NCBI GenBank assembly: GCA_025782575.1
Contig: JALGYY010000017.1
Coordinates: forward strand, 733,892 to 797,891
Direction of reading: 5' to 3'
Origin: a bacterium
GTDB lineage: Bacteria > Orphanbacterota > Orphanbacteria > Orphanbacterales > Orphanbacteraceae
Length of the DNA stretch: 64,000 nucleotides
A program made the position numbers and the translations under genes. The notes under the pieces were generated by a model. The model ran no database searches. It saw only the letters and a list, made by a program, of their open reading frames with translations, and had not been told where the DNA came from. Of this stretch, positions 41,784 through 43,818 are shown in pieces (position 1 is the stretch's first letter; each line of letters opens with the position of its first letter).

Positions 41784-41992
41784 TAGACTGAGTCTCCTCC
41801 CCCCCAAACTACATCTTTTCCATTGCAGATCGCAACATCTGGATGCACAGCGATCACGGCAGAATTAGAAACATTGATCCTATTCGGTTGATAAGCGGTA
41901 TAAATCAGTGAGGATAGGATTGGGATCATAACGTCGGTTCGGGCACGGGACTTGCGTCTCTTGAATCTCGACACCCTCTCGAGGAGTTGGTG

Positions 41993-42748
41993 ATGGGACT
42001 CGATTCATACACAAATTCGCTTCTGCGCATCGGCCAAAGTGATCCGGCCTTCTCCTTTCTGTTTGATAAACTGCTGAAATCAAGGATCGCGACGGACAAT
42101 GAATCGAACAAGGAATTCTTCGACGAAGATGTGAATATATATCTGTCACTTCTTCTGAACTCCATGGTGAGCGATGAATTTCACAAGGTTTCGGCCCGCT
42201 ATGTCGCCGGCTATGAAACCGACCTGCCGGAAATCCTGGACAGCGTCGACACATCATACATGAAATATCAGATTTATCGGATCAATGCTGATTTTCTTCT
42301 CCTCCAGACAGGTCTGTTTCTGGTGCCGGGCGAAGTCAACCAGAACGAACGATCCTTTAAGGAAAGTGTGGAAAGAGGGAAGACCTATTATCGTTTCGCC
42401 TGCTCATTTACAGATAAGATCCCCGAACGCTACAGACCGATCTCACAGATTCTGGGCAAGCTTTCCTACGGTTTTGAGACCTATCGCGAAATTCTCTCAT
42501 TCATGCGCGGCGAATACTTGAACATCATATCTCCGCTCTCAGATGGCGATATGGGCGTGATATACAGGGATATGGACGATCAGGAGAGGACCGCCGCGAT
42601 CGAGGTCGCGCAGAATGATCTTCTGGACGCCTATCTGAATTTCCAATCGGACGAATCCGAGGTAAATCGCGAGGAGTTCCGCATGGCTTTCAGGAAGCTG
42701 AAGGAACTTGACCCGGAATCCCGCCCGGATTTCGATATTGAAAACTGA
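41993..42748 (+). CDS. Conserved hypothetical protein
   Basis: A 251-residue soluble protein, mostly alpha-helical and acidic, with no signal peptide or membrane segment. Notable stretches are NIYLSLLLNSMVSDEFHKVS, DTSYMKYQIYRINADFLLLQ, RPISQILGKLSYGFETYREI and DLLDAYLNFQSDESEVNREE. GAGGAG stands six bases before the ATG. A TATAAA box near 41900 may be its -10. No domain family is recognised. It has no close co-directional partner, and a probable structured RNA gene lies downstream on the other strand. Confidence 0.65.
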   Translation: MGLDSYTNSLLRIGQSDPAFSFLFDKLLKSRIATDNESNKEFFDEDVNIYLSLLLNSMVSDEFHKVSARYVAGYETDLPEILDSVDTSYMKYQIYRINADFLLLQTGLFLVPGEVNQNERSFKESVERGKTYYRFACSFTDKIPERYRPISQILGKLSYGFETYREILSFMRGEYLNIISPLSDGDMGVIYRDMDDQERTAAIEVAQNDLLDAYLNFQSDESEVNREEFRMAFRKLKELDPESRPDFDIEN

Positions 42749-42816
42749 TTCTTGTCTGAGTTAAGTAGTGAAGAAGATCGACGTCCCGAAATTGCATTGA
42801 CGAGAGCAGCGCAAAG

Positions 42817-43021
42817 AAAAATCCCCGCTTAATCGCGCGCCCGCCTACTTAAGACCCGGATAATCCAGGTGGGTACCCTCTCTCCCGGCTCGAACTGCCC
42901 ACGAATGAGCGACGTCTACCCGGTCGAAGTGCGCTTTCGCGCGAGTTCCCGTACTTAAGCTGTTGGCTCTAAATAGATACGGACGCCTCAGCATTAAGCG
43001 AGGATATTTTCAATTCCAACT
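42817..43021 (-). ncRNA. Probable structured small RNA, class unknown (6S-like size)
   Basis: This ~205-base minus-strand unit starts at a consensus promoter. A 13-bp closing helix joins 43005-42993 to 42833-42821 with one U-G wobble. Its 3' arm runs directly into TTTTTCTTT, so the closing helix doubles as a terminator. Inside are GCGC-GAAA-GCGC (42931-42942), a 6-bp hairpin with a UUA loop (42855-42869), and two self-complementary CTTAAG boxes. There is no open reading frame of note. RNase P, SRP and tmRNA signatures were not seen. 6S RNA is the best guess by size and layout, but the GNRA hairpin is not a 6S hallmark. Confidence 0.6.
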
Positions 43022-43027
43022 GTCGTA

Positions 43028-43057
43028 ATTATATCACTCACGGAAAAAGGCTGTCAA
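43028..43057 (-). promoter_or_regulatory. Consensus sigma-70 type promoter for the small RNA
   Basis: On the minus strand TTGACA (43057-43052) and TATAAT (43033-43028) are both perfect, with an 18-base spacer. This is the strongest promoter by sequence in the window. Transcription would start near 43021, about 16 bases before the closing helix of the RNA. Confidence 0.8.
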
Positions 43058-43158: not shown

Positions 43159-43818
43159 ATGAAATCAGCAGCATTCACACTTCTCATCGCTCTTCTAGTT
43201 ATCCCGCAGCACGCGCATGGCGAAGTGGGAAGCATGTTCCTGAACGGCCTCTCTCTGTTCGCCAGTAATGACATTGATCGCACGGCAGATGACCTGCAGA
43301 CCGGTAATCTCAATCCCGCATACGATGGTGATTATCTGCTCACCTTCGGTAATCCGAATGGGAACCACACACTCTTCGGATTCGGCTATTTCTGGACCCG
43401 TCGCACTGAGTCGAACGAACTCCCCTTCGGTCTCTCCTCGGGGGAGGCTCGCCTTCAACTGTTCGGCTTTCCGATCTCCGCGGGTTTTGGGAAACGCTTT
43501 TCCCTGTCGCCGGGAAGAACTGCCGTCATCGGCCTGCTCGGCCAGTACTACTTTCTGCAGGCTTCGGCCAAGAGCCCCGATCCCGGCGATCCCGCCTGGT
43601 TTCTACTGGGGGAGGACAATACCGGGGACCGCAATGCCCAGGGGCCGGGCCTCACTCTCTTTGCCGCCTACGAGATTCCGTTCTTTTTCGGCAGGATCGG
43701 CCTGGGGGCGAAGGGGAGGATCACCTCGCTCCGTGTTGATGAGATTTCGGGATTGGCGGCACCGGATCTGAATCTGAACGGTGCCACGGTTTTCCTGTCC
43801 GTAGCGCTGAACGACTAG
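43159..43818 (+). CDS. Exported hypothetical protein, probably a small outer-membrane barrel
   Basis: A 219-residue protein with a signal peptide (FTLLIALLVIPQHAHG). The mature part is built of amphipathic strands with Gly and aromatic residues (HTLFGFGYFWTRRT, RLQLFGFPISAGFGKRFSL, RTAVIGLLGQYYFLQ, GPGLTLFAAYEIPFFFGRIG), consistent with an 8-stranded barrel. No family is recognised. No ribosome binding site precedes the ATG, and a TATAAT box lies only seven bases upstream (43146-43151), which would give a leaderless message. It converges on guaB with a 16-base gap. Confidence 0.6.
   Translation: MKSAAFTLLIALLVIPQHAHGEVGSMFLNGLSLFASNDIDRTADDLQTGNLNPAYDGDYLLTFGNPNGNHTLFGFGYFWTRRTESNELPFGLSSGEARLQLFGFPISAGFGKRFSLSPGRTAVIGLLGQYYFLQASAKSPDPGDPAWFLLGEDNTGDRNAQGPGLTLFAAYEIPFFFGRIGLGAKGRITSLRVDEISGLAAPDLNLNGATVFLSVALND

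Follow-up and report, generated by a model that had tools for sequence, protein, structure and literature searches.

Evidence for a divergent 6S RNA gene (ssrS) in an uncultured bacterium

In a 64,000-nucleotide stretch of the genome of an uncultured bacterium (hereafter the window), we found a minus-strand segment that is almost certainly a single, divergent 6S RNA gene (ssrS). An earlier sequence-only reading had left it either as a lineage-specific 6S RNA or as a new class; the first of these is upheld by a full-length match to the Rfam 6S model (RF00013), syntenic orthologs that score above the cut-off of that model, reciprocal matches, covariation and motifs, while the second gained no support, and the RNA is an ordinary new member of the 6S family. 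The comparison set comprises the window genome and six other genomes of the phylum, all belonging to one family and representing five genera, including that of the window itself. All seven carry an orthologous RNA at the equivalent locus behind a TTGACA promoter. The gene and its features are as follows:

42814..43021, minus strand: 6S RNA gene (ssrS) over the full length of its predicted transcript, with start and end placed by prediction
43052..43057, minus strand: -35 element TTGACA, perfect in all seven genomes, with a spacing of 17-18 bp
43028..43033, minus strand: -10 element TATAAT; the relatives have TAnnnT
42991..43011, minus strand: 5′ arm of the closing stem, from the fold (helix 1 of the consensus)
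42961..42969, minus strand: GAGCCAACA motif bordering the central bubble on its 5′ side, GA(G/A)CCAACAG in all seven genomes
42947..42950, minus strand: GGGA opening the apical stem, in agreement with the RF00013 consensus and invariant in all seven genomes
42931..42942, minus strand: GCGC-GAAA-GCGC, an optional GNRA-capped side hairpin of the apical arm, folding on its own at -7.4 kcal/mol
42854..42873, minus strand: CCCACCTGGATTATCCGGGT, the central-bubble segment on the 3′ side, in which a 3′-CB hairpin of 7 bp is predicted; from the RF00013 alignment (CCCACCUGGA) and the fold
42817..42836, minus strand: 3′ arm of the closing stem, continuing into the T-run, from the fold and the consensus
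42813..42821, minus strand: T-run TTTTTCTTT of a presumed intrinsic terminator, from the sequence; the relatives are T-rich at the equivalent place

The perfect TTGACA-18-TATAAT promoter that the sequence-only reading had picked out (43057-43028, minus strand) is the sole perfect TTGACA-N18-TATAAT pair in the window, with none in 100 shuffles, and the 4.88-Mb genome holds 11 such pairs versus none for a reversed-pattern control. This strong housekeeping promoter probably drives transcription of the 6S RNA gene, with the RNA predicted to start about 7 nt past the -10 element and to end inside the T-run; the limits are drawn from the promoter and from the T-rich run after the closing stem. The distance from promoter to T-run permits about 208 nt, and the RNA itself, of about 205 nt, has no plausible protein between its flanking ORFs, as had been read for a non-coding minus-strand unit of about 205 bases. 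The entry of the 3′ arm into a T-run, also part of that reading, is likewise seen at 42821-42813, and all seven copies have a closing stem followed by a T-rich run.

The RNA folds with a minimum free energy of -85.4 kcal/mol versus -66.2 +/- 4.7 for dinucleotide shuffles (z = -4.07; none of 200 as low). The fold is a rod comprising a closing stem, a central bubble and an apical stem, an architecture backed by covariation: the RNAalifold consensus of seven sequences has 55 pairs, with two-sided compensatory changes in 25 of them and 92% of cells paired. None of 500 shuffles reaches any covariation measure of this consensus, and sliding the 3′ partners as a control brings the two-sided count down from 25 to 2-6, figures to be read with the small sample of seven related sequences in mind, as the shuffles ignore relatedness while the slid controls keep it. 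The 13-bp pairing of the RNA ends that had been proposed, with its conservation in relatives as the check, is real: the closing helix joins the 5′ and 3′ ends over at least 13 bp and is kept by compensatory changes in the six relatives, with two-sided changes in 9 of the 15 pairs of the closing stem (helix 1) in the seven-sequence consensus.

A scan with Rfam at gathering thresholds returns tRNA alone in the window and no 6S match, so that routine annotation would miss the RNA described here; such a scan misses 6S in four of the seven genomes examined. A permissive scan of a 500-bp region aligns RF00013 to 42997-42821 (minus strand) over the full model (positions 1-187) at 20.1 bits, which is below the cut-off of 46.4 bits, and at E <= 10 the window RNA is the one match of RF00013 in the whole genome. 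The six other phylum genomes also give a single match each (68.7, 60.9, 60.1, 44.2, 37.9 and 36.1 bits), and the cut-off is passed in three. Membership in the family comes through these orthologs above the cut-off together with a leave-one-out covariance model (R2), made from the six relatives with the window sequence withheld, which ties the window copy to them: it finds the window RNA at 42815-43007 with 118.8 bits (E = 7e-27) as its only significant match in the genome, where the next best has 17.1 bits. The mir-191, sR55 and RgsA matches of the permissive scan, lying far under their cut-offs and outside the RNA, are chance, and a nucleotide search outside the family likewise returned chance matches only.

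In the opposite direction, a covariance model from all seven sequences (R1) was set against the 20 top-scoring RF00013 loci of genomes that do not belong to the phylum. It recovers 18 of these known 6S RNAs in the same position and strand with E <= 0.01, but neither the other two nor E. coli ssrS, to which it has no match at E <= 10. Such misses come as no surprise from so narrow a model, yet they count as a negative. That the segment encodes a structured housekeeping RNA of a new class with no relation to 6S, as might be argued from tRNA being the sole family to reach its Rfam cut-off in the window, we consider to have a negligible probability, being contradicted by the orthologs above the 6S cut-off, by the reciprocal matches outside the phylum and by the presence of 6S motifs. 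The seven lineage sequences would improve the RF00013 seed alignment, and the 6S RNA gene is here supplied for a poorly studied uncultured lineage, leaving knowledge of 6S RNA itself unchanged.

The motifs concerned sit at the central bubble. The sequence-only reading had held that the known signatures of 6S RNA are missing; this was mistaken, as GAGCCAACA occurs in the region where the product RNA would start and GGGA...CCCACCTGG occurs at the bubble. The window carries AGAGCCAACA at 42970-42961, and GAGCCAACA is also common to 6S RNAs outside the phylum. GGGA and CCCACCTGG (42873-42865) flank the central bubble, whose 3′ side reads ACCC(A/C)CCTGGA in all seven genomes. All three motifs (GAGCCAACA, GGGA and CCCACCTGG) align with Rfam 6S loci from beyond the phylum, and in the alignment to the seven-sequence model TTGAGCCAACA and CCCACCTG recur in most outside-phylum 6S RNAs. 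When E. coli 6S RNA is aligned, its GAGCCGAU ends at U44, where its product RNA (pRNA) starts. From this alignment the template start of the window RNA is predicted at C42962, and the pRNA, read along the plus strand as 5′-GUUGGCUCUAAAUAG..., would begin GUUGGCUC. The predicted pRNA has GG at positions 4/5, as do those of E. coli, A. aeolicus and R. sphaeroides (PMC8414754).

6S RNA mimics an open promoter and sequesters the housekeeping holoenzyme; its release follows when the enzyme takes the 5′ bubble strand as template for a product RNA (PMC8414754; PMC8876501). By analogy, we posit that the strong promoter would yield an RNA of about 205 nt that would fold into the rod of closing stem, central bubble and apical stem, and that this rod may imitate an open promoter and bind polymerase carrying the primary sigma factor, with the resulting sequestration lowering housekeeping transcription as cells slow down. 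Upon the return of nutrients, the polymerase would copy the 5′ side of the bubble into the short pRNA predicted above, the synthesis of which would refold the 6S RNA and free the enzyme. The binding partner of an RNA is unreadable from its sequence, and Ms1 of Actinobacteria, a structurally related rod with a central bubble, was itself at first mistaken for 6S RNA (PMC9130861); the window RNA might thus be a 6S-like molecule of different function, e.g., one of the Ms1 type that binds core polymerase without sigma. We regard this as very improbable: Ms1 is described from Actinobacteria, is longer (about 300 nt) and has extra hairpins at its ends (PMC9130861), whereas about 208 nt are available here and the fold shows no such hairpins at either end, and the end-to-end match to the 6S model and the 6S product-RNA start motif also speak against it.

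The reading of the window RNA as 6S RNA accords with the family in its length, rod, full-length model match, GAGCC together with GGGA...CCCACCTGG, and single strongly promoted gene; it departs from the family in that the window copy lies under the cut-off and bears an extra apical side hairpin. With E. coli ssrS it shares GAGCC at the 5′ edge of the bubble, directly before the product-RNA start, but the zapA/fau neighbors found there are lacking at the window locus, and the lineage model leaves the E. coli gene unmatched, as noted. Its predicted 7-bp hairpin recalls the 3′-central-bubble hairpin of free B. subtilis 6S-1 RNA (PMC8876501), a likeness by description; the B. subtilis pRNA has GG at positions 5/6 (PMC8414754), in contrast to the predicted 4/5 here.

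The internal GCGC-GAAA-GCGC hairpin of the sequence-only reading is indeed found (42942-42931). Among the seven genomes compared, it is displayed by three (G000, G002 and G005), which represent two of the five genera, and is absent from G001, G003, G004 and G006. It could define a 6S variant in which the apical arm of some genera becomes a three-way junction, with a possible effect on the contact with sigma region 4 or on the hold on the polymerase, though we consider this unlikely.

The RNA lies between two plus-strand ORFs (41987-42748 and 43159-43818), and in five of the six relatives it is flanked by homologs of both ORFs, that of 253 aa (47-61% identity) and that of 219 aa; in the sixth (G005) the 253-aa neighbor is present and the second neighbor is unmatched on a short contig. 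Homologs of IMP dehydrogenase, a nitrilase-like hydrolase and FtsH occur further out in the relatives where the contig extends. Its position between two conserved plus-strand genes in nearly all relatives would be compatible with an antisense or cis-regulatory RNA of a neighboring gene, an explanation to which we attach next to no probability, given that the RNA ends about 66 bases beyond the stop codon of the ORF converging with it (42748) with no overlap and has its own promoter and the full 6S architecture.

The 253-aa protein (41987-42748, plus strand) has no Pfam family above cut-off (DUF3613 reaches 23.9 versus 25 over a 23-residue stretch), and is conserved beside the 6S gene family-wide. 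More distant homologs occur in MAGs with titles naming Eisenbacteria or Krumholzibacteri-; these homolog loci (L048-L063, mostly so titled) have no detectable adjoining 6S. A viral-contig search with the upstream neighbor of the RNA found nothing. The literature searched, which lacked most subscription journals, yielded no description of an Eisenbacteria 6S RNA. The 219-aa protein (43159-43818, plus strand), for which there is no Pfam match, has an apparent signal peptide and occupies the same place in most relatives.

The seven-sequence model additionally gives weak matches on the opposite strand of four loci (L031, L032, L034 and L047; 22-33 bits versus 153-187 bits on the sense strand), because the rod is nearly palindromic; these were discounted. 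Such a near-palindromic 6S rod can mislead strand calls, as at L031, L032 and L034.
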